Below are positions 41,820 through 64,000 of a stretch of 64,000 bases of DNA, piece by piece. The notes beneath the pieces were generated by a model. That model did not search any database. It was not told the DNA's origin and saw only the letters and a list, made by a program, of their open reading frames with translations. The position numbers were made by a program, and so were the translations under genes. Every line of letters starts with the position of its first letter. Positions within the stretch are counted from its first letter, which is position 1. The stretch comes from Bradyrhizobium rifense (GTDB taxonomy: Bacteria > Pseudomonadota > Alphaproteobacteria > Rhizobiales > Xanthobacteraceae): NCBI RefSeq assembly GCF_008123425.1, contig NZ_VSSS01000034.1:1-64000 (forward strand). Reading direction: 5' to 3'.

Positions 41820-41873
41820 GCCCTCAGCCTCCGGCGTCTCGCCGGTTCGCCTTGTGGAGCAGGCAGAGGCCGG

Positions 41874-41949: not shown

Positions 41950-41995
41950 CGGGGGGCAGGCTGTAGCACAATGGCAACTGAGACGGAGTGGCATG

Positions 41996-43714: not shown

Positions 43715-43776
43715 CAACCACTCGAACGAGCGCCCAGACCGCTAAAAGCGGCGGGCGATAAAAACAGGGGGAGACG

Positions 43777-44784: not shown

Positions 44785-44906
44785 GTCGTCTGCGGCCATC
44801 CTTCGAGACGCCCGCCACAGGCGGGCGTCTCGAACCATGCAGGCCGAGCAAGTTCGGCAGCTTCCCAGCTGTCGCATGCGGCAGCTCCGGGACGACGAGG
44901 ACATTG

Positions 44907-45485: not shown

Positions 45486-46822
45486 GCGCACCCGTTGTCC
45501 TGGCGTTGATGTCGATCTGCTTCCTGTCGTTCGGCTATCTCGGCGTGCCCGTGCCGTTTTCGCTGATGGCCGGCGTGTTCATCGGCGCGGTCCTGTCCGA
45601 CGTCTCGCTCGCCGCGATCATCCAGAAGATCTTTGACGGCGTCGATTCCGAGGCGCTGCTGGCGATCCCGTTCTTCCTGCTGGTCGGCGAGCTCATGAGC
45701 TCGGCCAATGTGGTGGTTCGAATAGCAAATCTCTCGGTATCGCTGGTGGGGCATATCAGGGGCGGGCTGTCGCAGGTCGTCGTCGTCTTCAGCATGTTCT
45801 TCTCGGAAATGTCGGGTTCGACCACCGCCGACGTCGCCGTGATGAGCCGCGCACTCGGCGGCCCGATGAAGCGCGAAGGCTACGAGCCCGCCTTCATCGC
45901 CGCCATCATCGCATCCGCGTCGACCATTGCGGCGCTGGTGCCACCGAGCATCACCGCGGTGGTCTATGGCGCAGTCGGCAACGTCTCGATCGCCGGCCTG
46001 TTCATGGCGGGCGTGGTGCCCGGCCTGATGATCGGCTTCGGCCTGATGATCTATTGTTATTTCTTCGGCCCCTCCGGCTTGCGCAAGCCGCGCGCGCCGC
46101 TGCGGCAGATCGTGTTCGCCGCCGGCGACGCCGCGCTGCCGCTGATGATCCCGGTCATCCTGCTCGGCGGCATCCTGACCGGCTGGTTCACGCCGACGGA
46201 AGCCGGCGTTGTTGCGGTGGTCTGGATCATCCTGGTCGTGATCCCCGCGCTCAACCGCGGGCATTTCCGGAAGATCCCGTATGATTTCTGCCTTGCCGGG
46301 CTGATCTTCTCGCTGCCGCTGATCACCATCGGTGCCGCCAACGCCTTCGGCTGGATGCTCGCCTATTTGCGCGGCGCCAGCTACATCGCCGACATGATCA
46401 CCTCGATTGCGGGCAACGATCCGCATCTGATCATGCTGCTGATGGTGCTGCTGTTCACCGTGGTCGGCGACTTCATCGAGCCGGTGCCGACCATCATCAT
46501 CTTCATGCCGCTGGTCAACACGCTGACGGAAGCGGGCGACATCAACGGCGTCCATATGGGCGTGGTGCTGATCGCGACGCTCGCCTTTGGCCTGATCACG
46601 CCGCCTTATGGTCTGGTGCTGCTGATGGCGTCGAAATTCGTCGGCGTCAGCTTTGCGAAGGCGTTACGCGCGGCGCTGCCGATCTATGTCGTGTTCTTCG
46701 CGACCATCGCGTTTGCGATCTATTTCCCGAGCGTCGTGCTGTGGCTGCCGCAGCATGTGCTGCCGGAATCGGTCGGCTGCTTCAAATCGCCGGCGGGGAC
46801 CGGCTACATCTGTCCCAAGTGA
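45482..46822 (+). CDS. TRAP transporter large permease (DctM type)
   Basis: A 446-residue membrane protein with about 12 helices, the ion-coupled translocation subunit. DctM motifs: PFFLLVGELMSSANVVVRIA, GSTTADVAVMSRAL, GGILTGWFTPTEAGVVAVVW and ITPPYGLVLLMASKFVGVSF. GTG start, translationally coupled to the small permease. It ends the plus-strand operon and converges almost directly (5 bases) with the phosphatase gene. Confidence 0.93.
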   Translation: MSAPVVLALMSICFLSFGYLGVPVPFSLMAGVFIGAVLSDVSLAAIIQKIFDGVDSEALLAIPFFLLVGELMSSANVVVRIANLSVSLVGHIRGGLSQVVVVFSMFFSEMSGSTTADVAVMSRALGGPMKREGYEPAFIAAIIASASTIAALVPPSITAVVYGAVGNVSIAGLFMAGVVPGLMIGFGLMIYCYFFGPSGLRKPRAPLRQIVFAAGDAALPLMIPVILLGGILTGWFTPTEAGVVAVVWIILVVIPALNRGHFRKIPYDFCLAGLIFSLPLITIGAANAFGWMLAYLRGASYIADMITSIAGNDPHLIMLLMVLLFTVVGDFIEPVPTIIIFMPLVNTLTEAGDINGVHMGVVLIATLAFGLITPPYGLVLLMASKFVGVSFAKALRAALPIYVVFFATIAFAIYFPSVVLWLPQHVLPESVGCFKSPAGTGYICPK

Positions 46823-49828: not shown

Positions 49829-50737
49829 CTACAGAATCGCTGCCACTTCCGCGGCCGTCGGCATCGACGGCCCGGCCCCCATGCGCTGCACGCTGATCGA
49901 GGCGGCGGCGTTGGCGAAGGCGAGGGCGGCGCGCAGCGGCACGCCATCAGCGAGCTGCGACGCGAGCGCGCCGACAAAGCAATCGCCGGCGCCGGTGGTG
50001 TCGATCGCCTTCACCACGCGGCCGGGTACGGAAAATTCCTCGCTGGAAGCGAGCGCGAGCACGCCGCGCTTGCCGAGCGTGACGCAAATCGTCTGGTCCT
50101 CGCGCGCCTGAAGTTTTCGCGCGACCGCGATGATCTTTGCGGTCTCGTCGTCGTCGGTGAGCTCGGTGCCTGCGAGGAAGCCGAGCTCCGTCTCGTTCAG
50201 CACCAGGATATCGACCAGCGCGAGAAGCTCGGGCGACATCTTTTGCGCCGGGGCAGGATTGAGCACTGTGGTGGCGCCGGCCGTGTGCGCGCGCTGGAAG
50301 AACGCGGCAATGGTCGGCAGCGGAATCTCGAATTGGCTGACGGCGACATCGCCCTTCGCCAGCGGCGCATCCGCGACGTCATCCGCGCTGACCAGTGCGT
50401 TGCTGCCGGGAATGACGACGATGGTGTTGTCGGAGGCCGCGACCGTGATGATCGCGGTGCCGGTGTGTGTCTCGGGCGTCTCCTTGATCGAGCCGGGATC
50501 GATGCCCTGCGCGTTAAGGAACGTCCTCAGTTCAGCCCCGAACGAATCCGTGCCCAGCCGCCCGATCAGCGTGGTCTTCGCGCCGAGCCGTGACGCGGCC
50601 ACGGCCTGGTTCGCACCCTTGCCGCCCGGAAAATACAGCACCTGCTTTCCGGCGACGGTCTCGCCGACCCTGGGATGGCGATCGGCGGTCGCCACCACAT
50701 CCATGTTGATGCTGCCGGCGACGAAGACACGCCCCAT
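49829..50737 (-). CDS. rbsK: Ribokinase (PfkB family)
   Basis: A 302-residue sugar kinase phosphorylating ribose or a related pentose at O5. The PfkB signatures are FPGGKGANQAVAASRLGAKT (residues about 36-55) and the ATP/anion-hole motif DTTGAGDCFVGALA with catalytic Asp (near 250). NPAP in TTVLNPAP is typical of ribokinases. GAGGT lies upstream of the ATG. It is the second gene of a two-kinase unit, 18 bases after the PfkB gene. No ribose transporter adjoins it. Confidence 0.87.
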   Translation of the reverse strand: MGRVFVAGSINMDVVATADRHPRVGETVAGKQVLYFPGGKGANQAVAASRLGAKTTLIGRLGTDSFGAELRTFLNAQGIDPGSIKETPETHTGTAIITVAASDNTIVVIPGSNALVSADDVADAPLAKGDVAVSQFEIPLPTIAAFFQRAHTAGATTVLNPAPAQKMSPELLALVDILVLNETELGFLAGTELTDDDETAKIIAVARKLQAREDQTICVTLGKRGVLALASSEEFSVPGRVVKAIDTTGAGDCFVGALASQLADGVPLRAALAFANAAASISVQRMGAGPSMPTAAEVAAIL

Positions 50738-50755
50738 GACAAACCTCTTCGAAGT

Positions 50756-51649
50756 CTAAACTCGGACTTCGAACTCGTGCCTGACTTTGGCGATGTCCAC
50801 AAGGGTCGGAAGTCCCGCCTCGTTGCCGAGGCGCTGGATCTTGAAGGTCGAGGCGGCGCGGGCAAAATCAAAATGCTCGCGCCAGCTTTTGCCGGGATGG
50901 GCCAGATAGGAATAGACATAGGCGCCGTGGAAGACGTCGCCGGCGCCGTTGGTGTCGATCACGCGCTCGCGCGGGATCGGCATCGCCGGCATGGTCTCGA
51001 CCGCACCGGTTTCGTTGTACCAGAGCAGGCCCTTCTCACCCATGGTGATGCCGCCGATCTTGCAGCCGCGGCCCTTGAGGTAGTCGAGCATCTTTTCCGG
51101 CGTGAGATCCATCTGTTCGCAGAGGCGCTCGGCGACGATCGCGACGTCGATGTATTCAAGCAGTTCATGCGTGTTGGTGCGCAGGCCGCCGCCGTCGAGC
51201 GAGGTCAAAATGCCGGCCTCGCGGCAGACCTTTGCGTAGTGGATCGCGGCATCGGGCTGATGCCCGTCGATATGCAGCGCGCGGCAGCCGCCGAGATTGA
51301 GGATCGGGAACGGATGGATGTGCTCGTCGTCGCGGCAGCGGACGATGGCGCGCTTGCCGTCCTTCGGCATGATGAAGGAGAGCGAGGACTGGTTCACCTT
51401 CCGCCCGTGCAACGAGATCGCGTATTTCGCGCACATGTCCATGAACATGCGGCCGAGCCAGTCGTTCGCAGCGGTGGCGACGAGATCGGGCACGATGCCG
51501 AGCTTGGCGCAGCAGAACGCCGCCGTGACCGCGTTGCCGCCGAAAGAGACCGCGTAGTCGGTTGCCACGTGCTTTTCGTCGCCGGTCGGCATGTGGTCGG
51601 TGATGAAGACGACGTCGATATAGGTCTGTCCGATAAAGAGAGCCTGCAT
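50756..51649 (-). CDS. PfkB-family carbohydrate kinase
   Basis: A 297-residue kinase with PfkB signature DTNGAGDVFHGAYVYS (catalytic Asp in GAGD) and N-terminal YAVSFGGNAVTAAFCCAKLG. It differs from ribokinase in lacking GGKGANQA and having VFITDHMPTGDEKHVA near the start, features of fructokinase/sulfofructose-kinase-like members. Upstream partner of rbsK. Having two PfkB kinases in one unit suggests two phosphorylations in one sugar or nucleoside route, but nothing beside them fixes the substrate. Confidence 0.85.
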   Translation of the reverse strand: MQALFIGQTYIDVVFITDHMPTGDEKHVATDYAVSFGGNAVTAAFCCAKLGIVPDLVATAANDWLGRMFMDMCAKYAISLHGRKVNQSSLSFIMPKDGKRAIVRCRDDEHIHPFPILNLGGCRALHIDGHQPDAAIHYAKVCREAGILTSLDGGGLRTNTHELLEYIDVAIVAERLCEQMDLTPEKMLDYLKGRGCKIGGITMGEKGLLWYNETGAVETMPAMPIPRERVIDTNGAGDVFHGAYVYSYLAHPGKSWREHFDFARAASTFKIQRLGNEAGLPTLVDIAKVRHEFEVRV

Positions 51650-51858
51650 TGCTTGTCCGTGATGCGCTTTGGTGGTCCCGGCCGGCGGGTTTACTCTAAC
51701 ACCGGTTCCGTGTCCGGGACGCTGAAATTATTCGCAAAACAACCCCGAGGCGCTTGAGGCCGGCATGGGGCCGGAATACGACCATGTCAGGCCCATGCCA
51801 AGCCCGGACAAATGCCGTTTTTCGGCCGGTTGTTCCTGGTCCATAAAGAGGGGGGAAT

Positions 51859-52707
51859 ATGATCACCGGCCTCGATCACATCGTTGCTCTGGTCAGGGAT
51901 ATCGGTGCGGCCAAGGCGGCCTATCAGACGCTCCTAGGCCGCGCGCCGGCCTGGCAGAATTCCGGCGAGGGCGCCGATCGCGTGCTGTTCACCCTCGACA
52001 ACTTGACCCTCGAATTGATGGCGCCGAGCGGCTTCACCGCCACCGCGGACCGCATGCGCGCGCTGCTCGACGACCAGGAGGGGGTGCTCGCCAGCCTGTG
52101 CTTTCGCGTCGCAGACATGAGCAAGATGCACCGGCGGCTGGACCGGGTGGCGCTGAAGCCGGATCCCGTTGCCGAGGTCGAGAGCAGTGACGCCGCGACC
52201 GGCGCGGCCCTGCACTGGAAGCGCACGCGGGCCGCGACCGAGCTCACGCGCGGCGTGCGCATGTTCTTCCTCGAGCTGGCCGAGGAGCGTCCGAAGTCGG
52301 TTGCGATCGATGTCGCGCCGATCGACGGGCTCGACCACATCGTGATCACCACCGAGGATTCCGATCGCGCCGCCGCGCTCTATGGCGCCCGGCTCGGGCT
52401 CGATCTGGCGCTCGACCGCTCGCATCACGATTGGGGGCAGCTGATGTTCTTCCGCTGCGGCGATCTCATCGTCGAAGTGGTCCGCCGACCCGTGGCGGGC
52501 GGGGATTCCCTGCACGACCGGCTCTGGGGCCTGAGCTGGCGCGTCGCCGACATCGACGCCACCCGCGCCCGCCTGCTCGCCGCTGGTCTCGACGTCACCG
52601 AAGTCCGCAACGGCCGCAAGCCGGGCACGCGCATCATGACCGTGCGGAACGGCACCTGTGGGATCCAGACCGTGCTGCTGGAGCGTTCGCCGAAGCCGGT
52701 GGAATAG
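51859..52707 (+). CDS. VOC (glyoxalase/dioxygenase fold) family protein, two domains
   Basis: A 282-residue protein with two vicinal-oxygen-chelate modules, one starting ITGLDHIVALVRDIGAAKAA and the second IDGLDHIVITTEDSDRAAAL. The metal-ligand histidines LDHIV are present in both, and RCGDLIVEVVRRP supplies a possible acidic ligand. The first half resembles the Glyoxalase_3 type that lacks enzymatic assignment. The ATG follows GGGGGAAT. Stand-alone; a TetR gene lies downstream beyond a repeat. Confidence 0.82.
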   Translation: MITGLDHIVALVRDIGAAKAAYQTLLGRAPAWQNSGEGADRVLFTLDNLTLELMAPSGFTATADRMRALLDDQEGVLASLCFRVADMSKMHRRLDRVALKPDPVAEVESSDAATGAALHWKRTRAATELTRGVRMFFLELAEERPKSVAIDVAPIDGLDHIVITTEDSDRAAALYGARLGLDLALDRSHHDWGQLMFFRCGDLIVEVVRRPVAGGDSLHDRLWGLSWRVADIDATRARLLAAGLDVTEVRNGRKPGTRIMTVRNGTCGIQTVLLERSPKPVE

Positions 52708-52724
52708 GCTCCGTTCTCTCCACG

Positions 52725-52818
52725 CGTCATTTGCGAGCGAAGCGAAGCAATCCAGAATCCCGCCGCGGTGACCGTCTGGATTGCTTCGTCGCAAGGGCTC
52801 CTCGCAATGACGGCGGGG
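52725..52818. repeat. Palindromic intergenic repeat (GTCATTGCGAGCGAAGCGAAGCAATCC type)
   Basis: GCGTCATTTGCGAGCGAAGC and AAGCAATCCAGA on the left mirror TCTGGATTGCTT and CTCCTCGCAATGAC on the right. This element, familiar to me from many Rhizobiales genomes, can fold into one long stem. It separates the VOC and TetR genes. Confidence 0.75.
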
Positions 52819-52861
52819 GCGTGGTACATGGCATACCGTAAGCACCCAGCGAGCACCCGGT

Positions 52862-53575
52862 TTGGCGAAGGCAACGGCAAAGCGAACTCCGAAATGGCAG
52901 CGCGATCCCGAGGGGATGCGGCTGCGCATTCTCGAGGCGGCCAAGCAGGAGTTTTCCGCTCATGGGCTCGCCGGCGCGCGCGTCGACCGCATCGCAGTTA
53001 AGGCCGGCGCCAACAAGCGCATGCTGTACTATCACGTCGGCAACAAGGACGACCTCTATCTCGCGGTGCTGGAAGGCGCCTATGACAAGATCCGCAGCGA
53101 GGAGCGGGGGCTCGATCTCGAACATCTCGATCCGCCCGAGGCCATCAAGCGGCTGATCGAGTTCACCTGGGGCTACTTCCTGCGCAATCCCGAGTTCCTG
53201 TCGCTGCTCCAGACCGAGAACCTTGCGCGCGCCAAGCATTTGAAGCGCTCGACCAAGGTCAAGTCGATGCACTCGCCCTTCGTCGAGATGATCCGCACCG
53301 TGGTGCGGCGCGGCGTCGAGAGCGGCGATTTCCAGGTCGCGGTCGATCCGGTGCAGCTCTACATCTCGATCGCGGGCCTCTGCTTCTTCTACCTCTCGAA
53401 CTCGGCGACACTGAGCGTGATCTTCGGCCGCGACCTGCTCGCCAAGGACGCCAAGGACGAGCGGCTTGCCCACATGGTCGGCCTCGTGCTGGCCGCGTTG
53501 ACGGGACAGTCCGCTGCGCTGTTCGAGATCGCCAAGGCGCCGAAGTCGCGCGCTGCGGTGGCGCAGACGGTGTAG
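52862..53575 (+). CDS. TetR-family transcriptional regulator
   Basis: A 237-residue regulator. DNA-binding domain at residues about 19-66 (RLRILEAAKQEFSAHGLAGA, VDRIAVKAGANKRMLYYHVG, NKDDLYLAVLEGAYDKI) and a C-terminal TetR_C-like ligand domain (FTWGYFLRNPEFLSLLQTEN). The start is taken as TTG at 52862, the only codon giving full length; its ribosome site is weak. It points toward the ABC operon at 53.9 kb, about 300 bases away, and might regulate it, but a repeat lies in between. Confidence 0.87.
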   Translation: MAKATAKRTPKWQRDPEGMRLRILEAAKQEFSAHGLAGARVDRIAVKAGANKRMLYYHVGNKDDLYLAVLEGAYDKIRSEERGLDLEHLDPPEAIKRLIEFTWGYFLRNPEFLSLLQTENLARAKHLKRSTKVKSMHSPFVEMIRTVVRRGVESGDFQVAVDPVQLYISIAGLCFFYLSNSATLSVIFGRDLLAKDAKDERLAHMVGLVLAALTGQSAALFEIAKAPKSRAAVAQTV

Positions 53576-53627
53576 GCCGTAGTGCGCGCATTGGTGGATG
53601 TAGCGCCCGCCGTTTCCACAATCTCCG

Positions 53628-53729
53628 CCGTCGTTGCCCGCGAAGGCGGGCAATCCAGTATTCCAGAGACGCTGGTGGGATACGGAGAAGCGGCGGCGTA
53701 CTGGATTCCCCACTTTCGCGGGGAATGAC
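53628..53729. repeat. Palindromic intergenic repeat (GGCAATCCAGTATTCCAGAG type)
   Basis: GTTGCCCGCGAAGGCGGGCA and GCAATCCAGTA on the left oppose TACTGGATTCCCC and CTTTCGCGGGGAATGAC on the right, a long imperfect palindrome typical of the genus. The remaining 140 bases up to the ABC operon must hold its promoter; I see no confident sigma-70 or sigma-54 element. Confidence 0.7.
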
Positions 53730-53872
53730 ACCAAGGGTGGCGAGACGGTCCACCCCTTCACGCACCTTTCGCGCCCCAAAACCGGCACAAAACGTCACGG
53801 GGAAACCTCTGGACAGTATTTATCCAACGGGTTAATTTCTCCCCGAACGAAAAAGAATGCCGGGAGTGAGGC

Positions 53873-54682
53873 GTGGCTGAGCTGAAGCCGCAAGGTGCGG
53901 TGTCCAAGATGCTGAATGCGGCCTGGATCAGGCCGTTTGTATTCTTGGTTTTCATCGTCGTGGCTTGGGATCTCGCGATCCGGCTGTTTAGGATTCCCGC
54001 CTACCAAATCCCGTCACCCGCTGATGTCGTTGCGGTGCTGTGGACCGACTGGCCGGAGCTGCTGCGGCAGTCCTGGCCGACCACCTATGCGACCGTTTGC
54101 GGCTTCATGCTCTCGGCGCTATTCGGTATCCCCGTTGCCATGCTGATCGCGGGCTCGAAGACGGTGGAGAGCTACGTCTATCCGCTCTTGGTATTCTCCC
54201 AATCCGTGCCGAAGATCGCCATCGCGCCTTTGTTCGTGGTCTGGTTCGGCTTCGGCATTATCCCGAAGGTGATCTCGGCGTTCCTGCTCGGCTTCTTCCC
54301 CGTCGTGGTCTCGGCGGTGCAGGGCTTCAAGTCGGTCGACCCTGACATGGTCGATCTCGCCCGCGCCATGCAGGGCAGCCGCTTTCAGGTGTTTTGCGCG
54401 GTGAACCTGCCGCATGCGCTGCCGGCGATCTTCTCCGGCCTGAAAGTCTCGGTGACGCTCGCCGTGGTCGGCGCGGTCGTCGGTGAGTTCGTCGGCTCCA
54501 ACTCCGGCATCGGATACGTGATGCAGCGCTCGATCGGCACCTTCGACCTGCCGACGATGTTCGCGGCCCTCGTGATCCTCGCGCTGCTCGGCGTCATCCT
54601 GTTCTGGATCGTCGACCGGATCGAGAAGCTGGTCATTCCCTGGCATGTCAGCCAGCGCGAAGACGTGATTTTCGCCTCTTAA
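53873..54682 (+). CDS. ABC transporter permease (NitT/TauT family)
   Basis: A 269-residue inner-membrane permease with about six helices. N-terminal helix IRPFVFLVFIVVAWDLAIRL; the EAA-like loop is DPDMVDLARAMQGSRFQVF followed by NLPHALPAIFSGLKVSVTLA. This is the SsuC/TauC/ThiX-like fold used with NMT1-type binding proteins. GTG start with GGGAG upstream. First gene of a seven-gene plus-strand run (permease, binding protein, ATPase, four catabolic enzymes). Confidence 0.9.
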   Translation: MAELKPQGAVSKMLNAAWIRPFVFLVFIVVAWDLAIRLFRIPAYQIPSPADVVAVLWTDWPELLRQSWPTTYATVCGFMLSALFGIPVAMLIAGSKTVESYVYPLLVFSQSVPKIAIAPLFVVWFGFGIIPKVISAFLLGFFPVVVSAVQGFKSVDPDMVDLARAMQGSRFQVFCAVNLPHALPAIFSGLKVSVTLAVVGAVVGEFVGSNSGIGYVMQRSIGTFDLPTMFAALVILALLGVILFWIVDRIEKLVIPWHVSQREDVIFAS

Positions 54683-54731
54683 CTTAAGCAACGGCCACCA
54701 ACGGCCGAAACATAACGAAGGGAGAGTGACG

Positions 54732-55724
54732 ATGAAGCGATGGATTGGGGCTGCATCTGTGGCGCTGATGGCGTTTGCAGTGTCGCCGGCGCGGGCGGCC
54801 GACAAGGTCGTGCTGATGCTCAACTGGTACGTCTATGGCGAGCACGCGCCGTTCTATTACGGCAAGGCCAAGGGCATTTACGCTGCCGAGGGCATCGACC
54901 TCGAGATCCAGGAAGGCCGCGGTTCGGCTGCGACCACGCAAGCCGTGGCTGCCAAGACCGCCGATTTCGGCTATGTCGACGTTCCCACCATGATGCGCGC
55001 CGCGATCAAGGGCGCGCCTGTGATCGCGACCGGCGTGCTGCTGCAGACCAGCCCGATGTCCGCGATGGGCTTCGTCGACAAGAACATCAGGAAGCCGGAA
55101 GACATCAAGGGCAAGACGGTGGCGATCACGCCGGCCGATTCCATGACCCAGATCTGGCCGCTGTTCCTGAAGAAGACCGGCCTGAAGGAGAGTGACTTCA
55201 CGACGGTCGCCGGTGATGGCCAGACCAAGCTCAACGCCGTCATCAACGGCCAGGCTGATCTGCTGCTCGGCTACGTCATGGACCAGTCGATGAAGATCAA
55301 GGACGCCACCGGCAAGGACGTCTATCCGATCAAGTTCGCCGACTACGGCATCAACATGGTCTCCTCCGGCATCATCGCCAACTCCGACTATGTGAAGGCC
55401 AATGCCGATCTCGTTCGCCGCTTCATGTCGGCGACGACCAAGGCGGTCGAAGCCGCCGAGAAGGAGCCGAAGGCCGCCGCGCAGTCGATCCTCGATGCCA
55501 ACCCGAAGGGCGGCAAGATCGACACGCTGACGCAGGGCTTTGAGCTGACCATTCCGCTGTACCGGACCGTCGAGACCAAGGGCAAGCGGCCGTTCCAGGT
55601 CACCGATCAGAACATGACGGATAGCGTCAACCTGATGGTCGAATATGGCGGGCTCGACGCCAAGGCCAAGGAGAACCCGAAGGCCTTCTACACCAACGAT
55701 TACCTTCCGAAGAGTGGCACGTGA
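54732..55724 (+). CDS. ABC transporter substrate-binding protein (NMT1/THI5-like)
   Basis: A 330-residue periplasmic protein. Signal peptide RWIGAASVALMAFAVSPARA, then VLMLNWYVYGEHAPFYYGKA (the NMT1 hallmark of LNW...H...), the segment GSAATTQAVAAKTADFGYVD, and KGKTVAITPADSMTQIWPLF. NMT1 proteins usually bind pyrimidine precursors, sulfonates, riboflavin or aromatic compounds, so the ligand need not be a plain sugar. The ATG at 54732 has GGAG upstream. Its stop overlaps the ATPase start. Confidence 0.9.
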   Translation: MKRWIGAASVALMAFAVSPARAADKVVLMLNWYVYGEHAPFYYGKAKGIYAAEGIDLEIQEGRGSAATTQAVAAKTADFGYVDVPTMMRAAIKGAPVIATGVLLQTSPMSAMGFVDKNIRKPEDIKGKTVAITPADSMTQIWPLFLKKTGLKESDFTTVAGDGQTKLNAVINGQADLLLGYVMDQSMKIKDATGKDVYPIKFADYGINMVSSGIIANSDYVKANADLVRRFMSATTKAVEAAEKEPKAAAQSILDANPKGGKIDTLTQGFELTIPLYRTVETKGKRPFQVTDQNMTDSVNLMVEYGGLDAKAKENPKAFYTNDYLPKSGT

Positions 55725-56569
55725 AACCAGCGACGATCGTGAGTGAAGCCGTGCAGCCGGCCGCGCATCTGAGACTGGTGAGCGACCGGGCTGCCGGCGA
55801 TACGTCGGGCATCACGCTGTCCGGCGTGTCCAAGACGTACCGGACGCGTGACGGCGACGTGCCGTCGCTGCGGCCGCTCGACTTCCACATCAATGACGGC
55901 GAGTTCTTCGTCGTGGTCGGCCCCAGCGGCTGCGGCAAGTCCACGCTGCTCAAGCTGATCTCGGGGTTGCTGCCGCCGACATCAGGCGAAGTTCTGGTCG
56001 AGGGCGAGAAGGTGACGAAGCCACATGGCAATGTCGGCATCGTCTTCCAGAACGCGCTGCTGCTGCCCTGGCGCAACATCCTGTCCAACGTGATGCTGCC
56101 GATCGACATGAAGCGGCTGCCGCGGGACGAATATCTCGTGCGCGCCAAGGCGTTGCTCAAACTGGTCGGGCTCGAAGGGTTCGAGAAGAAGCTGCCCTGG
56201 CAGCTCTCCGGCGGGATGCAGCAGCGCGCGTCGATCTGCCGTGCGCTGGTGCACGATCCCAAGATCATGCTGATGGACGAGCCGTTCGGCGCACTCGATG
56301 CGCTGACACGCGAGCGCATGAATGTCGAGCTGATGCGGATCCAGCGCGAGACCAGGAAGACGGTGCTGTTGATCACGCATTCGATTCCGGAGGCTGTGTT
56401 CCTCGCCGACCGCGTGCTGGTCATGACCGAGCGGCCCGGCGCGGTCGCAGCGATCTACGACGTGCCGATGCCGCGCCCGCGTTCGCTCGACGTGATGGCC
56501 GATCCTGTTTTCACCGAGCTTGTACAACGAATCCGCAAGCATTTCTTCTCGCAAGGTACGCTGGACTAG
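55721..56569 (+). CDS. ABC transporter ATP-binding protein (NitT/TauT family)
   Basis: A 282-residue ATPase with an N-terminal extension of about 30 residues. Walker A GPSGCGKST (near residue 67), Q-loop IVFQNALLLPWR, signature LSGGMQQRAS, Walker B ILMDEPFGALD-like IMLMDEPFGALDAL and H-loop ITHSIPEA. GTG start overlapping the binding-protein stop by four bases (GTGA). Powers the importer of this operon. Confidence 0.92.
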   Translation: MKPATIVSEAVQPAAHLRLVSDRAAGDTSGITLSGVSKTYRTRDGDVPSLRPLDFHINDGEFFVVVGPSGCGKSTLLKLISGLLPPTSGEVLVEGEKVTKPHGNVGIVFQNALLLPWRNILSNVMLPIDMKRLPRDEYLVRAKALLKLVGLEGFEKKLPWQLSGGMQQRASICRALVHDPKIMLMDEPFGALDALTRERMNVELMRIQRETRKTVLLITHSIPEAVFLADRVLVMTERPGAVAAIYDVPMPRPRSLDVMADPVFTELVQRIRKHFFSQGTLD

Positions 56570-56572
56570 ACC

Positions 56573-57979
56573 ATGGCGCCGCGCCTGAAGCTGCGAGACA
56601 TCGCCTTCTTCGAACGTCCCGTGCATTTCGCGCGGCCGTTCCGCTTTGGCGCTGTTACCATCAATGCGACGCCGCAGCTGTTCGTGCGGGTCGAGATCGA
56701 GGTCGAGGGCAAGGGAACCGCCGTTGGCGCCAGCGCCGAACTGCTGGTGCCGAAATGGTTCGACAAGCGATCGGAGCTGTCGCCGGCGCAGACGGTTGAT
56801 GGACTGCGGCGTTCCCTGGAGATCGCACGTGGGCTTTATCTGGCGCGGACTGGATTCCAGACAGCGTTCGATCTGCATGCCTCCTGCATCGGGGCCCAGA
56901 TCGCGACGTGCGCGAAAAAGAACATTCCAGCGCTGGCCGCGGCCTATGGTCCAGCAGAGATCGACAAGGCGATCCTCGATGCGCTGCTGCGTGGCGTCGA
57001 GACCAATTTTTTCGACGGGATGGCCGGGAATATCGCCGGCATCGATGCGCGTCTCTCGCCTGATTTGAACGACGGCGATATCACGCGATTTCTTGTCCTT
57101 GCCAATCAGCACCGATCGGAACGCGTAGCGATCCGCCATACCGTCGGCCTCGACGACAAGGTCGAGGGCAACGGCGGCGTAGCCGATCCGAAGGAAAACG
57201 CTGGTGCACGCTATTTCAAGCTGAAGCTCGGCGGGGATCCCGATGTCGATGCCGCTCGGCTAACCCGTATCGGCCGGGAGCTGGCGACGCTGCCTTATGA
57301 TTACAAGGTGACGCTTGATGGCAATGAACAGTACGCGGACCTGACGGCGCTTGCGGCGCTGGTCAACCTGTTGGAGCGCGACGACGCGCTAAAGCCGATC
57401 TTTCGCAAGCTGATCTATATCGAACAGCCCATGCCGCGCGACGTCACGCGTCAATCGCCGCTCGGTGACACTCTGCGTCGTCGCGGTTTCATCATCGACG
57501 AGGCGGACGATTCATATGACGCCTGGCCGGCCGCCCACAAGCTTGGTTACAGCGGCATCTCGTCGAAATCCTGCAAAGGTATCTACAAGTCGATCGTGAA
57601 CTTCACCCGCATCGCCAAACTGGACGAAGAGGGAGCGGAGTGTTTCATCACGGGTGAAGATCTGACCTGCCAGCCCGGTCTCGCTCTGCAACAGGATTTG
57701 GCACTCGGCGCGCTGCTGTGCCTCGAACATGCCGAGCGCAACGGCCATCACTATGTCGACGGTTTTGGCGACACGCCCGTCGTTGAAGCGAAGGCCTTTG
57801 CGGCCGCGCATCCCGATCTCTACGCCGATGCCGGGCAGGGCATCCGTCTCTCGATTCACGACGGCGGTCTCCTGACGGGATCGCTCAACGTGGCGGGCTT
57901 TGCGACGTCGGTCCATCCGGACTGGTCGGCACTCCGCCCACTCGAACAGCCAACATCACTCTGGGAGCAATCGGCATGA
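56573..57979 (+). CDS. Enolase-superfamily (mandelate racemase/MLE-like) protein
   Basis: A 468-residue protein with the enolase-superfamily plan: an N-terminal capping domain (residues about 1-125) and a TIM barrel. Candidate active-site residues are Lys216/Lys218 (YFKLKLGG), metal ligands Asp249 (TLDGNEQ), Glu284 (YIEQPMP) and Asp309/Glu310 (IIDEADD), and a C-terminal Lys332/Lys335 (SSKSCKG). It is some 70-90 residues longer than common mandelate-racemase enzymes. Expected chemistry is proton abstraction next to a carboxylate (acid-sugar dehydration or epimerisation). It starts 3 bases after the ATPase stop. Not a subgroup I recognise. Confidence 0.8.
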   Translation: MAPRLKLRDIAFFERPVHFARPFRFGAVTINATPQLFVRVEIEVEGKGTAVGASAELLVPKWFDKRSELSPAQTVDGLRRSLEIARGLYLARTGFQTAFDLHASCIGAQIATCAKKNIPALAAAYGPAEIDKAILDALLRGVETNFFDGMAGNIAGIDARLSPDLNDGDITRFLVLANQHRSERVAIRHTVGLDDKVEGNGGVADPKENAGARYFKLKLGGDPDVDAARLTRIGRELATLPYDYKVTLDGNEQYADLTALAALVNLLERDDALKPIFRKLIYIEQPMPRDVTRQSPLGDTLRRRGFIIDEADDSYDAWPAAHKLGYSGISSKSCKGIYKSIVNFTRIAKLDEEGAECFITGEDLTCQPGLALQQDLALGALLCLEHAERNGHHYVDGFGDTPVVEAKAFAAAHPDLYADAGQGIRLSIHDGGLLTGSLNVAGFATSVHPDWSALRPLEQPTSLWEQSA

Positions 57980-59127
57980 CCACCCAACGCCTCGGCCTTA
58001 TCATGAACGGCGTCACCGGCCGCATGGGGCTCAACCAGCATCTGATCCGCTCGATCGTTGCGATCCGCGACCAGGGCGGCGTTCGCCTGAAGAACGGTGA
58101 CCGCATCATGCCGGATCCGATCCTGGTCGGCCGCAGCGCCGAGAAGGTGGAGGGGCTTGCCAAGCGCTTCAACATCACGCGCTGGACCACCGATCTCGAT
58201 GCCGCGCTCGCCGACAAGAACGACACCATGTTCTTCGATGCCGCGACGACGCAGGCGCGGCCGGGTCTGCTGACCCAGGCCATCAATGCCGGCAAGCACG
58301 TCTATTGCGAGAAGCCGATCGCGACGAACTTTGGAGAAGCGCTTGAAGTCGTGAAGCTCGCCAATGCCAAGGGCGTCAAGCACGGCACCGTGCAGGACAA
58401 GCTGTTTTTGCCCGGCCTGAAGAAGATCGCCTTCCTGCGCGACTCCGGCTTCTTCGGTCGCATTCTCTCGGTCCGCGGCGAGTTCGGCTATTGGGTGTTC
58501 GAAGGCGGCTGGCAGGAAGCACAGCGGCCGTCCTGGAACTATCGCGACGAGGACGGCGGCGGCATCATTCTGGACATGGTCTGTCACTGGCGTTACGTGC
58601 TCGACAACCTCTTCGGTAATGTCCAGAGCGTGGTCTGCATCGGCAACACCGACATTCCCGAGCGTTTTGACGAGCAAGGCAAGAAGTACAAGGCGACCGC
58701 GGATGACTCGGCTTACGCGACCTTCCAGCTCGAGGGCGGCGTCATCGCCCACATCAACATGTCCTGGGTCACGCGTGTCTATCGCGACGACCTCGTCACC
58801 TTCCAGGTCGACGGCACCCACGGCTCGGCGGTCGCAGGCCTCTCCGACTGCATGATCCAGGCGCGGCAGGCAACGCCGCGGCCGGTGTGGAATCCCGACG
58901 AGAAGCGGTTGCATGATTTCTACGGCGACTGGCAAAAGCTGCCGGACAACGTCACCTACGACAACGGCTTCAAGGAGCAGTGGGAGATGTTCATCCGCCA
59001 CGTCTACGAGGATGCGCCCTACAAGTTCACGCTGCTCGAAGGCGTCAAGGGCGTGCAGCTCGCCGAATGTGCGCTGAAGAGCTGGAAGGAGCGGCGCTGG
59101 ATCGACGTCGCCCCGATCAAGGCCTGA
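57976..59127 (+). CDS. Gfo/Idh/MocA-family NAD(P)-dependent oxidoreductase
   Basis: A 383-residue sugar-type dehydrogenase. The Rossmann start is atypical (LIMNGVTGRMGLNQHLIRSI), while the family motif CEKPIA (Glu112-Lys113-Pro114), which supplies the catalytic lysine, is clear. The C-terminal half has the substrate-binding beta-sheet domain (LDMVCHWRYVLDNLFG, AHINMSWVTRVYRDD). It overlaps the enolase-superfamily gene by four bases, so the two are translated together. Likely oxidises a hydroxyl of the imported carbohydrate to a keto group with NAD(P). Confidence 0.9.
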   Translation: MTTQRLGLIMNGVTGRMGLNQHLIRSIVAIRDQGGVRLKNGDRIMPDPILVGRSAEKVEGLAKRFNITRWTTDLDAALADKNDTMFFDAATTQARPGLLTQAINAGKHVYCEKPIATNFGEALEVVKLANAKGVKHGTVQDKLFLPGLKKIAFLRDSGFFGRILSVRGEFGYWVFEGGWQEAQRPSWNYRDEDGGGIILDMVCHWRYVLDNLFGNVQSVVCIGNTDIPERFDEQGKKYKATADDSAYATFQLEGGVIAHINMSWVTRVYRDDLVTFQVDGTHGSAVAGLSDCMIQARQATPRPVWNPDEKRLHDFYGDWQKLPDNVTYDNGFKEQWEMFIRHVYEDAPYKFTLLEGVKGVQLAECALKSWKERRWIDVAPIKA

Positions 59128-59138
59128 GGGAGGGAGAC

Positions 59139-60344
59139 ATGAACAGGCCCGTCCAGCCCAATCCTATTCCTTCAATGTCGTCCTTGTCGCTCAAGCTGCC
59201 GAAAGCCGATCGCTCGATCGAGACCTACCGGCTCGCGGCCTCGCGAACGTTCCCCGCAAAGCTCGAGGGACCGCTGAACCGCATCGCGTTCTCGGCCGTG
59301 CATACTGTCGTCGATCCCTTTGCGGACAACGACCCCTGGCTCTCGGCCGCCGTCGACTGGGACAAGACCCTTGCCTTCCGCGAGCACGTCTGGGACCTCG
59401 GCCTCGGCGTTGCGGAGGCCATGGACACCGCGCAGCGCGGCATGGGGCTAGACTGGCCGACCTCGCTGGAGCTGATCACGCGTTCGGTGGCGGCTGCCAA
59501 GCGGCGCAATGCGCTGGTGTTCTCCGGCGCCGGCACGGACCATCTCGCCGTGGACGACGCCAAGACCATCGACGATGTGATCCGCGCCTATGAGGAGCAG
59601 CTCTCTGCGGTCGAGAAGGTCGGCGGCCGCATCATCCTGATGGCGTCGCGCGCGCTGGCAAAAATCGGTCGCGGCGCTGACGACTACGCGAAGGTCTACA
59701 ACCGCGTGCTGTCGCAGGTCCGTGAGCCCGTGATCATCCACTGGCTCGGCGACATGTTCGATCCTGCCCTGACGGGATACTGGGGCACCAGGGATCTCGA
59801 CAAGGCGATGGACATTGCGGTGGCCATCATCAACAACAACGCCGCCAAGGTCGATGGCGTCAAGGTCTCGCTGCTCGACAAGCAGCGCGAGATCGACATG
59901 CGCCGTCGCCTCGACAAGCGCATCAAGATGTACACCGGCGATGATTTCAATTACGCGGAGCTGATTGCCGGCGACGAACAGGGCTTTTCGCACGCGCTGC
60001 TCGGCATCTTCGATGCGATCGCGCCGGCAGCGTCCTACGCACTGTCGCGGCTGGCTGCCGGCGACGAGGCCGGCTTCCACGATGTGCTGGGGCCGACCGT
60101 CCCGCTGTCGCGTCACATCTTCAAGGCGCCGACGCGCTTCTACAAGACCGGCGTCGTCTTCATGGCGTATCTCAACGGCCACCAGGATCATTTCACCATG
60201 GTCGGGGGGCAGGAGAGCACGCGCTCGACGCTGCATCTGGCCGAGCTGTTCCGGCTCGCCGATCAAGCCGGTCTGCTCGCCAATCCTGAACTGGCAACGC
60301 GGCGGATGAAGACCGTGCTGGCCTCGCACGGACTGGAAGACTGA
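59139..60344 (+). CDS. DUF993 protein (dihydrodipicolinate-synthase-like aldolase fold)
   Basis: A 401-residue protein of the DUF993 family, distantly related to the DapA/NanA class I aldolases. A TIM barrel is suggested, with the probable Schiff-base lysine Lys242 in GVKVSLLDK, positioned like the GIK lysine of DapA. Other conserved segments are AVDWDKTLAFREHVWDLGLG, LVFSGAGTDHL and VREPVIIHWLGDMFDP. AGGGAG precedes the ATG. By analogy it may perform a retro-aldol or dehydration step on a keto-acid or keto-sugar made by its neighbours. No function is established that I know of. Confidence 0.82.
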   Translation: MNRPVQPNPIPSMSSLSLKLPKADRSIETYRLAASRTFPAKLEGPLNRIAFSAVHTVVDPFADNDPWLSAAVDWDKTLAFREHVWDLGLGVAEAMDTAQRGMGLDWPTSLELITRSVAAAKRRNALVFSGAGTDHLAVDDAKTIDDVIRAYEEQLSAVEKVGGRIILMASRALAKIGRGADDYAKVYNRVLSQVREPVIIHWLGDMFDPALTGYWGTRDLDKAMDIAVAIINNNAAKVDGVKVSLLDKQREIDMRRRLDKRIKMYTGDDFNYAELIAGDEQGFSHALLGIFDAIAPAASYALSRLAAGDEAGFHDVLGPTVPLSRHIFKAPTRFYKTGVVFMAYLNGHQDHFTMVGGQESTRSTLHLAELFRLADQAGLLANPELATRRMKTVLASHGLED

Positions 60345-61207
60345 TGCGCGATTTTTCGTCCGACCACAGCTGGCTGTCGCTGAACACGGCAACTGTCCGC
60401 AAGCAGGGTGATCTCCTTCAGATCATCGACGCTTGCGCCAGGCACGGCATCCGTGCCATCGATCCCTGGCGCGATCAGGTCGCCGCCGTCGGTCTCGATC
60501 GTGCAGTGCGGGCGGTACGTGATGCCGGGCTCGAGCTCTCAGGCTATTGCCGTGGCGGCATGTTCACGTCGGATGCATCACGCCGAGGCGAAGTGCGTGA
60601 CGACAACCGCCGCTGCGTCGATGAAGCCAAGGCGCTGGGGGCGCCCTGCGTCGTGCTCGTCGTCGGTGGCCTGCCGCAATATTCGCGGCCTGGCAGCGAA
60701 GCGTCGAAGGATATCGTGGCGGCGCGCGGGCAGATCGAGGAAGCCCTCGCCGACATGCTCGACTACGCCAAGCAGGCGGAACTGCCGCTGGCGATCGAGC
60801 CGCTGCATCCCGCTTACGCGGCGGACCGCGCTTGCGTGAACACCACAAAGCAGGCGCTCGACATCTGTGATCGTCTCGACCCAGCCCGCAGCGGGATGCT
60901 CGGTGTCGCGCTCGACGTCTATCACATCTGGTGGGACCCGGAGCTGATGGATCAGATCGCACGGGCCGGCAAGGATCGCCTGCTCGCGTTCCATGTCTGC
61001 GACTGGCTGGTGCCGACCAGGGACATCCTCAACGACCGCGGCATGATGGGCGACGGCGTCATCGATATCAAATCCGCGCGCGCTGCCGTCGAGGCGCAAG
61101 GTTTTGCCGGCTATTCGGAGATCGAAATTTTCTCGAATGACTGGTGGGGCAGGCCGATGGACGAGGTGCTGCGCACCTGCATCGAGCGGCACAAGACGGT
61201 GGTGTAG
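60344..61207 (+). CDS. Sugar phosphate isomerase/epimerase (xylose-isomerase-like TIM barrel)
   Basis: A 287-residue AP-endonuclease-2-type TIM barrel. Metal-binding residues are suggested by AIEPLHPAYAADRACVN (Glu, His), VALDVYHIWWDPEL (Asp, His), LLAFHVCDWLVPTRD (His) and YSEIEIFSNDWW (Glu). The start codon overlaps the DUF993 stop (TGATG). Probably interconverts keto and aldose or epimeric intermediates. The last 43 codons recur, diverged, at 62427-62558. Confidence 0.88.
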   Translation: MRDFSSDHSWLSLNTATVRKQGDLLQIIDACARHGIRAIDPWRDQVAAVGLDRAVRAVRDAGLELSGYCRGGMFTSDASRRGEVRDDNRRCVDEAKALGAPCVVLVVGGLPQYSRPGSEASKDIVAARGQIEEALADMLDYAKQAELPLAIEPLHPAYAADRACVNTTKQALDICDRLDPARSGMLGVALDVYHIWWDPELMDQIARAGKDRLLAFHVCDWLVPTRDILNDRGMMGDGVIDIKSARAAVEAQGFAGYSEIEIFSNDWWGRPMDEVLRTCIERHKTVV

Positions 61208-61365
61208 CTCCCGCGAGCGTGGTCTTCAAGAACGTCGTCTCAGCGAACTATTAACCACTTTCAAGTTGCGTGCTGATAAGTCGATGGACAACCTATTGTT
61301 GTGAATCTTTTAAGAGGTACCAGCATACTTAGACACAATGTAAGATTGTGTTGCGGAATGTTGAA

Positions 61366-62334
61366 ATGCCCTCTTCGGACCTCGCAACTGAGGACCGCGA
61401 TCTAGCGTCGCGTTGCGATCAGGACCTTATGTTGCGCCCCTCAGGGCGCGGTGAGCGCGCAATCTGGCTCATCATAGGCGGAAGTCTGGCTGGTCTGCTC
61501 TTCGCCTGCCATCTCCTCAACTTCAGGATCGCGCTTGGAAGCGGGCTCCTGACGGTCGCCGCAAATGTAATTTTGCTCGTTGGCGGTGTTGTGATCGAAA
61601 AGCACGGCTGGCCGAGGCTGTCCGCATGGCTCAGGGCGACAGCCCTAATGACCTTCGTGACCATTCTCCTGACAGCCCTTAGCTATGTCCTTGCGAGCAC
61701 AAACCTGCCTCTGCGCGATACAGCCCTTATCTCACTGGATCAGGCGATCGGGATCGATTGGCGAAGCTTCGTCAACTTCATGATGAAACAACAAGTGTTG
61801 ATGATTGTTCTCAACGCTGCCTATGTCAGTCTCCACGCTCAATATCCCTTGCTGTTGCCGCTACTCTTTCTGCTCGGCCAGCACGATGAAGGAATGCAAT
61901 TCGCTCTCGTCTGGACGATTAGGTTGGCCGCTACGGTTCTCATTTTTCCACTCGCGCCTGCTCTGGGCGGTTATCTTCACTATCAGCTGGATCCCAAGGA
62001 TGTTCCCGAAGTTCGCGTTTTCGGCGCATGGTTGTTCGCGCCGCCCTTCCAGGCCGTTCGGGACGGCAGTTTGAATGTTCTTGACCTTTCAAAGCTCGAC
62101 GGCATCATCACGTTTCCGAGCTTTCATGCTGCCGCGGCGGTTCTGATGGGGTGGCGCTGGTTTGCGGTGCCACTGTTGCGGTGGCCGATGCTCCTGCTGA
62201 ACATTCTGATGCTGGTATCGGCTGTTCCGGTTGGTGGCCACTACATTGTCGACGTAATTGCCGGAAGCCTGCTGGCAATCCTCGCGATCATCGCAACCTC
62301 GCGCCTGCATCCCGTTTCGGAAGGGAAATCGTGA
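61366..62334 (+). CDS. PAP2-family membrane phosphatase (inositolphosphotransferase-like)
   Basis: A 322-residue membrane protein with about six helices and PAP2 catalytic motifs FPSFHAAAAV (Ser252, His254) and GGHYIVDVIAG (His292, Asp296). The arrangement, with N-terminal helices and FPSFH rather than SGH, resembles the Aur1/Ipt1-like bacterial group. GGAA lies seven bases before the ATG at 61366. The gene is visibly less GC-rich and less codon-biased than its neighbours and lies between two copies of the epimerase 3' end, which suggests acquisition by recombination. Probable substrate: a lipid phosphate or undecaprenyl-type phosphate. Confidence 0.85.
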   Translation: MPSSDLATEDRDLASRCDQDLMLRPSGRGERAIWLIIGGSLAGLLFACHLLNFRIALGSGLLTVAANVILLVGGVVIEKHGWPRLSAWLRATALMTFVTILLTALSYVLASTNLPLRDTALISLDQAIGIDWRSFVNFMMKQQVLMIVLNAAYVSLHAQYPLLLPLLFLLGQHDEGMQFALVWTIRLAATVLIFPLAPALGGYLHYQLDPKDVPEVRVFGAWLFAPPFQAVRDGSLNVLDLSKLDGIITFPSFHAAAAVLMGWRWFAVPLLRWPMLLLNILMLVSAVPVGGHYIVDVIAGSLLAILAIIATSRLHPVSEGKS

Positions 62335-62426
62335 CCTTTGGCGAGGGTGGTATTGCAGGCATGCCGTTGGCTGCGGCCGGCGTGCGCTCTGCGTGGCCGG
62401 GTTCTCGATCATACCTTCCTCGACCA

Positions 62427-62558
62427 GCGCGCGCTGCCGTCGAGGCGCAGCGCTATGCCGGCTATTCCGAGATCGAGATCTTCTCCAACGATTGGTGGAG
62501 CAAGCCGATCGGCGAGGTGCTGCGCACCTGCATCGAACGGCACCGGACGGTGGTGTAG
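62427..62558 (+). pseudogene. Truncated second copy of the sugar isomerase/epimerase 3' end
   Basis: Reads 43 codons ending in stop that match the C-terminus of the 60344-61207 product at 36 of 43 positions with no gap (shared ARAAVEAQ, AGYSEIEIFSNDWW, EVLRTCIER). Similarity continues about 25 bases past the stop (CCGCGAGCG). No upstream portion of the gene is present, so it is a fragment. The divergence means it came from a paralogue or an old duplication, not a recent copy. Confidence 0.85.
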
Positions 62559-62868
62559 GTTCCGCGAGCGGCGTCCTCATAGGCTTGCGAGCCTTGCGGC
62601 GCGTTGAAGCGCACCTTCTGCTCGCTGTTCAGCGTGACAAAAGACTCGTCCAGGGTTGATTGTCTCCTACATCCGTTTCGAATTGCTTGGGGGCAAACCT
62701 CGGCCCTGTAGGACGCCAAGCTATTAATGATGCTGAGGCCTGTAGCTTTTCCGCGTCGCGATACGATACTGCAGGGCAGGCCTCCCGTTGCAGCATGGGC
62801 CAATCTTCGCTTCAATCGTCTCTCACAGTCCGCGGGCGGCATAGCCAGAAACAAGTCATAGAGGATCC
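62559..62868. other. Intergenic stretch, no gene supported
   Basis: About 310 bases between the isomerase fragment and the phosphofructokinase gene. A minus-strand open frame covers it but crosses the isomerase relic antisense, has no recognisable domain and is rejected. The region is less GC-rich than its surroundings. No clear promoter motif. Confidence 0.5.
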
Positions 62869-64000
62869 ATGCCATCAATCGTCATCGCCCAGGGCGGCGG
62901 CCCCACCGCCGTGATCAACCAGACCTTGTGTGGCGCCATCCTTGCCGCGCGCAGGCATGATCCGTCCGTGCGCATTCTGGGCGCGCGCTATGGTGTGCGA
63001 GGCCTCACGCAGGGGAACGTCGTCGACCTAACCACCATGCCCGAGGCCGAACTCCGCCGCCTCGGCAACACGCCCAATTCGGCTCTCGGATCGACACGCG
63101 ACAAACCAGATGCTGGCGCATGCTCTGATATCCTCGCGGCTCTGGACCGGCTAGGCGCCCGCGCCTTCGTCTATATTGGCGGCAACGACACCGCCGGAAC
63201 GCTCGAACTGCTGCGGCAGCAGTCAAGTGGCGACTGCCATTTCGTGCATGCCCCCAAGACCATCGATAACGACCTGATGGAGAACGATCACGTCCCCGGC
63301 TTCATCTCGGCAGCCGCCTTCGTCGCCAATGCCCTTGTCAGCATAGATCTCGATTTTCGCGCCATGCCCGGCATCTATGTAGCCATCGTCATGGGCCGCC
63401 ATGCCGGTTTCCTCTCCGCCGCGGCCGCAGGCTGGCAGCAATCGCCCGACGATGCTCCGCATCTGATCTACACGCCGGAAAAGCCGTTCTCGGTGGTTCA
63501 GTTCCTCGACGACGTCGACGCGGTTTACACGCGGCTGGGCCGCTGTATCGTCTCGATGTCCGAGGGAGTGCAGGACGAAGCCGGCCGGCCTCTCGCCGAG
63601 GTGCTGGCGGGCGCGGCCGTCGAGCGCGACGCCCATGGCAATCTGCAATTGACGGGCGGTGATCTCGGCATCGAGATCCAAAAGGCGCTGAAATCGCGTT
63701 TTCCCAAGGCAAGGGCGCGTGTCGACACGCTGGGCTATCTGCCACGCGGATATATCGGCGTGATCGACGAAACCGACCGCAAGGAGGCTTTCGACGCTGG
63801 CGCATTTGCCACGCAAAGCGCCTTAACCGGCAGCGGCTCGGTGGTGCTGCATTATGACGGTGAGCGTATCGAACCCCTGCTCGTGCCGCTCGATCGCGTG
63901 GCTGGCAAAACACGCCATATGCCCGACGATTTCCTTGTCGGCAGCAATACCGTTTCGGAAGAAGGACGGCGCTATTTTCGGCGGCTTCTACCCAAGCGGC
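62869..64000 (+). CDS. 6-phosphofructokinase, pyrophosphate-dependent type (3' end beyond window)
   Basis: 377 codons visible, running off the right edge. PFK-A fold: GGGPTAVINQ (residues 9-18), GARYGVRGL, and the phosphodonor motif GGNDT (104-108), whose Asp107 occupies the place of the glycine of ATP-dependent enzymes; PKTIDND has Lys131 where ATP enzymes have glycine. Both residues mark PPi-dependent phosphofructokinases. IVMGRHAGFL and ISMSEGVQDEAG complete the substrate site. GAGGA lies four bases before the ATG. It would allow reversible fructose-6-phosphate/fructose-1,6-bisphosphate conversion, consistent with bradyrhizobia generally lacking an ATP-PFK. Confidence 0.9.
   Translation, partial: MPSIVIAQGGGPTAVINQTLCGAILAARRHDPSVRILGARYGVRGLTQGNVVDLTTMPEAELRRLGNTPNSALGSTRDKPDAGACSDILAALDRLGARAFVYIGGNDTAGTLELLRQQSSGDCHFVHAPKTIDNDLMENDHVPGFISAAAFVANALVSIDLDFRAMPGIYVAIVMGRHAGFLSAAAAGWQQSPDDAPHLIYTPEKPFSVVQFLDDVDAVYTRLGRCIVSMSEGVQDEAGRPLAEVLAGAAVERDAHGNLQLTGGDLGIEIQKALKSRFPKARARVDTLGYLPRGYIGVIDETDRKEAFDAGAFATQSALTGSGSVVLHYDGERIEPLLVPLDRVAGKTRHMPDDFLVGSNTVSEEGRRYFRRLLPKR

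Follow-up and report, generated by a model that had tools for sequence, protein, structure and literature searches.

The 64,000-nucleotide window of Bradyrhizobium rifense DNA analysed here contains a seven-gene operon (53873-61207, + strand) that is real and conserved and is probably co-regulated as a catabolic unit. It encodes an ATP-binding cassette (ABC) importer of the NMT1 type, an enolase-superfamily protein (ENO), a Gfo/Idh/MocA dehydrogenase (GFO), a protein of the DUF993 family (PF06187) and a xylose-isomerase-like TIM barrel protein (XI), and a TetR-family regulator gene and a predicted operator lie ahead of it. With slightly better than even confidence, it appears that these genes belong to one TetR-controlled regulon for the uptake and breakdown of a polyhydroxylated compound, likeliest an aldonate- or uronate-like sugar acid or its parent sugar, without prior phosphorylation. 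The host genome is 9.95 Mb in size, and among named organisms Bradyrhizobium has the closest relatives of its DUF993 protein.

The seven open reading frames run head to tail on the + strand with gaps, in gene order, of 43, -4, +3, -4, +11 and -1 nt, which bears out the tight operon described in an earlier reading of the DNA made from its letters alone (the sequence-only reading). They encode an SsuC/TauC-like permease (53873-54682, Pfam BPD_transp_1), an NMT1/THI5-like periplasmic binding protein (54726-55724, Pfam NMT1, 153.9 bits), an ATPase (55721-56569, Pfam ABC_tran), ENO (56573-57979), GFO (57976-59127, Pfam Gfo/Idh/MocA), the DUF993 protein (59139-60344, ATG at 59139) and XI (60344-61207, Pfam AP_endonuc_2, 129 bits). 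The family assignments of the sequence-only reading are confirmed by Pfam and, for ENO, by profile searches and predicted fold, and the operon indeed holds no kinase. Its inventory was right for the seven genes and overlooked two elements upstream of them. These are the TetR gene (52862-53575, + strand; Pfam, with the RutR-like C-terminal domain TetR_C_29), whose TTG start at 52862 is uncertain, and the predicted operator (53819-53835, no strand), an imperfect palindrome whose first base lies 54 nt upstream of the permease start codon.

The core of the operon is conserved among relatives of the DUF993 protein. The comparison covers the best 80 of at least 548 relatives and leans towards near kin, since 28 of the 80 are labelled Bradyrhizobium or Tardiphaga. 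Presence was scored by tblastn, at any place in the locus fetched. Of the 80 loci, 77 have GFO and 77 have XI together with DUF993, 64 have a TetR homologue (at least 40% identity), 58 have ENO and 45 have the NMT1 binding protein. Judged from these sequences, the gene arrangement is not chance. In the DUF993 tree a 58-row subfamily has GFO nearby in 54 rows (support 97/96). A phylum-wide sample of 398 genomes has DUF993 in 36 and ENO in 15, with up to four ENO candidates scored per genome, and 14 of the 15 ENO genomes are among the 36.

The importer varies, and ENO varies with it. Some relatives have TctABC or CUT1 importers in place of the NMT1-type ABC importer or in addition to it, so that the NMT1 importer is not what defines the pathway. 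Seventeen of the 80 loci are shorter than 15 kb, and linkage of importer and ENO was counted in the other 63. ENO is present in all 41 loci with the NMT1 importer, in eight of nine with TctABC, in one of 12 with neither importer detected at the thresholds used, and not in the single locus with CUT1 alone. ENO presence thus follows the importer, which links ENO to uptake. On a Sinorhizobium plasmid, TetR, GFO, DUF993, ENO and XI share a neighbourhood with a CUT1 importer and another three Gfo/Idh genes. Other clusters with DUF993 and XI (L106, L107, L109, L116-L120) have a short-chain dehydrogenase/reductase, and many of them also have an acyl-CoA dehydrogenase, CoA-transferase, enoyl-CoA hydratase or glycerate kinase; these perhaps represent a second, different DUF993 pathway. 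One contig labelled Frankia sp. RB7 encodes GFO, DUF993 and XI proteins 93-99% identical to those of the window and an ENO 80% identical, and is probably a mislabelled or contaminated assembly.

The TetR homologues lie mostly upstream of the cluster, with some downstream or on the opposite strand. The spacer between the TetR and permease genes has one conserved block only, whose core is TTTATCCAACGGGTTAA; this is the predicted operator, and its palindrome resembles the RutR box. Of the 80 loci, 32 have a TetR with 78% identity or more, and in each of these the operator is found 49-66 nt upstream of the first gene (permease in 31, GFO in one). The palindromic form TTAACCANCNGGTTAA, with up to three mismatches, has 74 intergenic and 18 intragenic sites in 93 loci (reversed control, 9 and 25), counts that are partly circular because the pattern was drawn up after sites had been seen in some of the same loci. 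A few such sites are far from the cluster. A narrower pattern has at least one site in 56 of 60 genomes assigned to Bradyrhizobium from the names of DUF993 relatives, compared with two hits overall for the reversed control. Family f43, which stands next to Comamonadaceae in the DUF993 tree, has the operator pattern at the cluster in three of three genomes; no wider regulon was found in these three, two of which have one or two weak extra sites. Sites of the TTAACCANCNGGTTAA type are also found near three clusters where DUF993 accompanies other enzymes (L117, L119, L120).

A second importer appears to be under the same control. The B. rifense genome has two exact sites for a relaxed operator pattern, and the second, two bases different from the first, lies 27 nt before a gene for a CUT1 carbohydrate-type binding protein at G000:C50:24205-25590. 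Two permease genes accompany this gene, and the group is unlinked to the operon. The same CUT1 importer follows an ACCGG-type second site in all 21 genomes examined of the 23 that carry the site, and the palindrome there differs from the operon operator by one or two bases. Looser searches of the B. rifense genome add nothing: GTAACCANNTGGTTAC with up to two mismatches has no match (reversed control, 10 per strand), and the genome's own operator with up to three mismatches has five sites compared with six in the control. Therefore only the exact and the conserved second site are relied on. A CUT1 importer behind a near-identical operator leads to the prediction of a regulon with two importers, one of them carbohydrate-type, and lends support to the carbohydrate-like substrate named in the sequence-only reading. 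The operon, the operator and the second importer together pose one testable question, namely which compound relieves TetR and binds both binding proteins.

The DUF993 protein appears to belong to a class of Schiff-base enzymes. It matches the whole Pfam profile (positions 1-382 of 382; 631.9 bits, cut-off 24), and its model (predicted local distance difference test score, pLDDT, 89.1) is a (beta/alpha)8 barrel of the dihydrodipicolinate synthase (DHDPS) type, also called the DHDPS/NAL fold. The nearest solved structure is 4dnh (SMc04132 of Sinorhizobium meliloti; Z 55, 62-63% identical), a member of the same family, and DHDPS-family chains follow at Z 28.9-29.8 over about 290 residues. K241 is invariant in 32 of 32 homologues, lies at the end of strand 6 (237-242) and aligns with the DapA lysine in a weak alignment. 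H200, on strand 5 (197-201), is likewise invariant in 32 of 32 and occupies the position where DHDPS-type aldolases have their catalytic Tyr; therefore the protein is not classed as a standard aldolase. A DHDPS-family member in which this Tyr is replaced by Gln is a dehydratase, according to a review of sugar pathways (PMC9795676). His at this position and the Gln-bearing precedent mean that cleavage is not assured, and the carbon-carbon cleavage that the sequence-only reading assigned to DUF993 is unsupported as stated. From fold and residues, a Schiff-base lyase or dehydratase is inferred. A second DHDPS-like protein of about 350 residues, c39, occurs in loci with ENO or GFO (L063, L132, L045, L061, L066, L071, L086), and comparison of DUF993 with c39 gave no usable relation. 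At L132, c39 and ENO occur in a genome where the DUF993 search found none.

ENO has no Pfam or NCBIfam match at E of 1e-3 or below, and its superfamily identity is based on profile matches and predicted fold. The profile matches are to dipeptide epimerases, chloromuconate cycloisomerases and N-acylamino acid racemases (E 2e-7 to 1e-2). The model (pLDDT 92.2) has an N-terminal capping domain and a barrel, and it aligns at Z 29.7-32.1 with the chains listed, which are mostly muconate-lactonizing enzymes, dipeptide epimerases and N-acylamino acid racemases. K216, K218, D249, N251, E284, D309, E310, K332 and K335 are invariant in 32 of 32 homologues; by analogy, we take them to be the K-x-K motif, the three acidic metal ligands and the second lysine. 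Modelled fold and the residues K-x-K, D-x-N, E, D/E and K are shared with the muconate-lactonizing (K/K) subgroup, and ENO fits this subgroup. It differs in being about 80-110 residues longer than most of the chains, with 11-19% identity in the rows listed. ENO also has the highest nonsynonymous divergence (dN) of the eight genes in four of four comparisons, despite its invariant catalytic residues, the extremes being 0.127 compared with 0.007 for GFO (18-fold) and 0.059 compared with 0.056 for XI. Two haloarchaeal plasmids (L112, L113) carry ENO homologues of 31-32% identity in gene-rich regions with Gfo/Idh genes around them, and L113 also has sugar isomerase-like genes there. In Rhizobium (L104, 5359-11386, and L131) an ENO homologue is found with a peptide-type importer, KduI/IolB, glycoside hydrolase family 39 (GH39), a barrel protein and a 2-hydroxyacid dehydrogenase. 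This cluster lies away from the core, with no DUF993 in the stretch.

By sequence, the catalytic residues of GFO and XI are intact. GFO is very close to PDB 3oqb (883.5 bits), has Rossmann and C-terminal domains and the E-K-P motif, and retains K113, D200 and H204 in 25 of 25 homologues. XI has relatives of solved structure in 3ju2, 3qc0 and 7vpf. Its E152, D191 and E261 are invariant in 28 of 28 homologues and H217 is found in at least 90%; by analogy, these E, D, H and E residues would be divalent-metal ligands. The importer proteins score below the NCBIfam cut-offs for SsuABC and TauABC: the permease at 89.0/347 bits (SsuC) and 84.8/342 (TauC), the binding protein at 60.2/163.5 (SsuA family) and the ATPase at 228.8/357 (TauB). 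The permease is below the cut-off of each of 17 NCBIfam models listed. The nearest solved chains to the binding protein are 4nmy, THI5 (4h6d, 4h65) and 3ix1.

The following route is proposed, with reaction classes taken from fold and residues and with the order of steps and the substrate inferred. The NMT1 importer would take up the acid, and the unlinked CUT1 importer behind the near-identical operator would take up the parent sugar. ENO would abstract the proton beside the carboxylate of the imported acid, in a dehydration or epimerisation that gives entry to the core route. GFO would then oxidise a hydroxyl with NAD(P), XI would use a divalent metal to isomerise or epimerise the resulting keto compound, and DUF993 would form a Schiff base with the keto acid, followed by cleavage or dehydration to small acids for central metabolism. 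TetR would act as a repressor that is released by an intermediate. Several neighbours favour a sugar acid as substrate: the TctABC importers, which are of an acid type; KduI/IolB and GH39 beside the Rhizobium ENO homologue; a gene of the 3-hydroxyisobutyrate-dehydrogenase family in three of the 80 loci; and glycerate kinase, which adjoins the core in Erwinia and is found in other DUF993 clusters. Tartronate semialdehyde reductase belongs to the 3-hydroxyisobutyrate-dehydrogenase family.

Oxidative non-phosphorylative sugar routes use Gfo/Idh/MocA dehydrogenases, enolase-superfamily dehydratases and enzymes of the DHDPS/NAL fold, with no kinase, as the review describes (PMC9795676). Such routes, of the Weimberg and Dahms kind, have the same kinase-free enzyme layout as the operon, and by analogy it looks as if the operon works like such a pathway. 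It differs from them in that its ENO is of the muconate-lactonizing type, its DUF993 protein has His at the Tyr position, and there is an extra isomerase-like barrel. The earlier statement that no characterised pathway has this combination thus stands for the particular families, which are new, and falls for the layout, which is known (PMC9795676). The novelty is in the particular enzyme families and not in the kinase-free layout. The operon also resembles myo-inositol catabolism (iol) in having a Gfo/Idh dehydrogenase and a xylose-isomerase-like barrel, and IolB/KduI lies beside the Rhizobium ENO homologue. It differs in its importer, GFO is under the IolG cut-off, and none of the seven genes is IolB, IolC or IolD by Pfam.

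Open-access literature yielded nothing relevant on the enzyme combination beyond one sugar-pathway review, and nothing relevant on 4dnh, 3oqb, 3ju2, 3qc0 or PF06187; on RutR it yielded general papers about TetR regulators. No mention of DUF993 was found in that literature, most subscription papers being outside its scope, in agreement with the sequence-only reading that the family lacks an assigned reaction. The nearest solved structures of the core proteins have general names only: "oxidoreductase" for 3oqb, "hypothetical protein SMc04132" for 4dnh (a 2012 release), "uncharacterized protein" for 3ju2 and "sugar isomerase" for 3qc0. S. meliloti locus tags turn up in papers on the polyhydroxybutyrate regulon (a table row), zinc resistance and malic enzyme. 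A route of this kind may help to supply carbon in soil or near plant roots.

Several observations weigh against a sugar-acid regulon. In 22 of the 80 loci, some of them short, no ENO was detected, and ENO is therefore dispensable to the core. The GFO label needs seven changes over the DUF993 tree, and two long-branched GFO rows are outside the subfamily. None of the 80 loci was found to have a glycerate kinase like that of Erwinia or Sinorhizobium, so that this clue is drawn from clusters more remote than these. Compared by profile, DUF993 and DHDPS match weakly (probability 1.3%), and the strong match is that of fold only. For the proteins of the muconate-lactonizing subgroup named in the match lists, the substrates are muconates, dipeptides and N-acylamino acids, and we know of no member that acts on a sugar acid. 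GFO scores below every NCBIfam cut-off, including those for inositol dehydrogenase (IolG, 70.3/355 bits) and levoglucosan dehydrogenase (53.2/650). By their names, several of the solved structures closest to the binding protein have to do with pyrimidines, and amidase or ureide genes are found near some relatives.

Some of these points suit other substrates better. A route for a cyclitol or keto-glycoside is a serious contender of clearly lower probability. In such a route GFO would oxidise a ring hydroxyl, XI would enolise or eliminate, DUF993 would open or cleave the keto product, and ENO would take an acidic relative. The best-scoring named models for GFO are those inositol and levoglucosan dehydrogenases, the best-scoring named chain is a scyllo-inositol/L-glucose dehydrogenase, DUF993, ENO and XI are grouped in Sinorhizobium with a CUT1 importer and a total of four Gfo/Idh genes, and KduI/IolB is found near an ENO homologue. 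Against this, acid-type importers accompany ENO, and ENO needs a substrate carboxylate. The annotation tables of the relatives name no IolC or IolD, with no search aimed at either.

An amino-acid-like or heterocyclic substrate is distinctly improbable: the compound taken up by the NMT1 importer would be a nitrogen heterocycle, a ureide or a betaine, which ENO would epimerise, and the remaining enzymes would remove the carbon skeleton. Pyrimidine-related proteins among the NMT1/THI5-type relatives, N-acylamino acid racemases and dipeptide epimerases among the ENO matches, an amidase and amidohydrolase beside ENO in one genome (L132), ureidoglycolate lyase and a Zn-dependent hydrolase downstream in Chelatococcus, and an amidase and hpxZ about 7 kb off in Pseudoroseomonas would all fit it. 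So would the likeness of TetR to RutR in NCBIfam score and C-terminal domain, but at 56.3 bits TetR is far below the RutR equivalog cut-off of 368 and adjoins other genes. Moreover, sugar-type importers substitute for or join the NMT1 importer, and no aminotransferase or amidase is among the seven genes. The importer with ENO and the GFO-DUF993-XI core could also be two unrelated functions co-located by shared induction only. The core is found without ENO and the NMT1 importer, ENO homologues are found away from the core, and ENO ranks first in dN throughout; but the constant pairing of ENO with DUF993 in the 41 NMT1-importer loci, the overlapping genes and the single operator-like site ahead of them all make this very improbable. 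The sugar-acid regulon remains the favoured reading.

A stronger proposal is possible and, on balance, doubtful. DUF993 would be a separate class of DHDPS-fold lyase with His in place of Tyr, ENO would be a muconate-lactonizing-type enzyme acting on a sugar acid, and the two would serve a joint, previously undescribed kinase-free route across Proteobacteria with one TetR operator and two kinds of importer. If ENO does act on a sugar acid, it would be, to our knowledge, the first enzyme of the muconate-lactonizing type to do so.

Other features of the region were noted. No Rfam family reaches its gathering score within 51700-63000, giving no sign of a riboswitch, and a scan for promoter-like (three sites; shuffles 1.3) and terminator-like (four; shuffles 6.0) sites was uninformative. 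A 153-nt direct repeat (86%) at 61076-61228 and 62427-62579 duplicates the 3' end of XI beyond a PAP2-family gene (61348-62334). Only a 42-47-nt fragment of the 1.2-kb stretch between the repeats occurs in the 80 loci, in four of them, and the repeat has the look of a scar left by recombination or insertion. The stretch downstream of the operon follows XI in two of the 80 loci. Judged by their translations, two PfkB-like sugar kinase genes lie upstream on the other strand (49829-51649) and a phosphofructokinase-like gene lies downstream (62869-64000). Genes at 41118-46822, likewise named from translations, encode a regulator, an IlvD/EDD-like dehydratase and a tripartite ATP-independent periplasmic (TRAP) transporter, and form another likely sugar-acid cluster.

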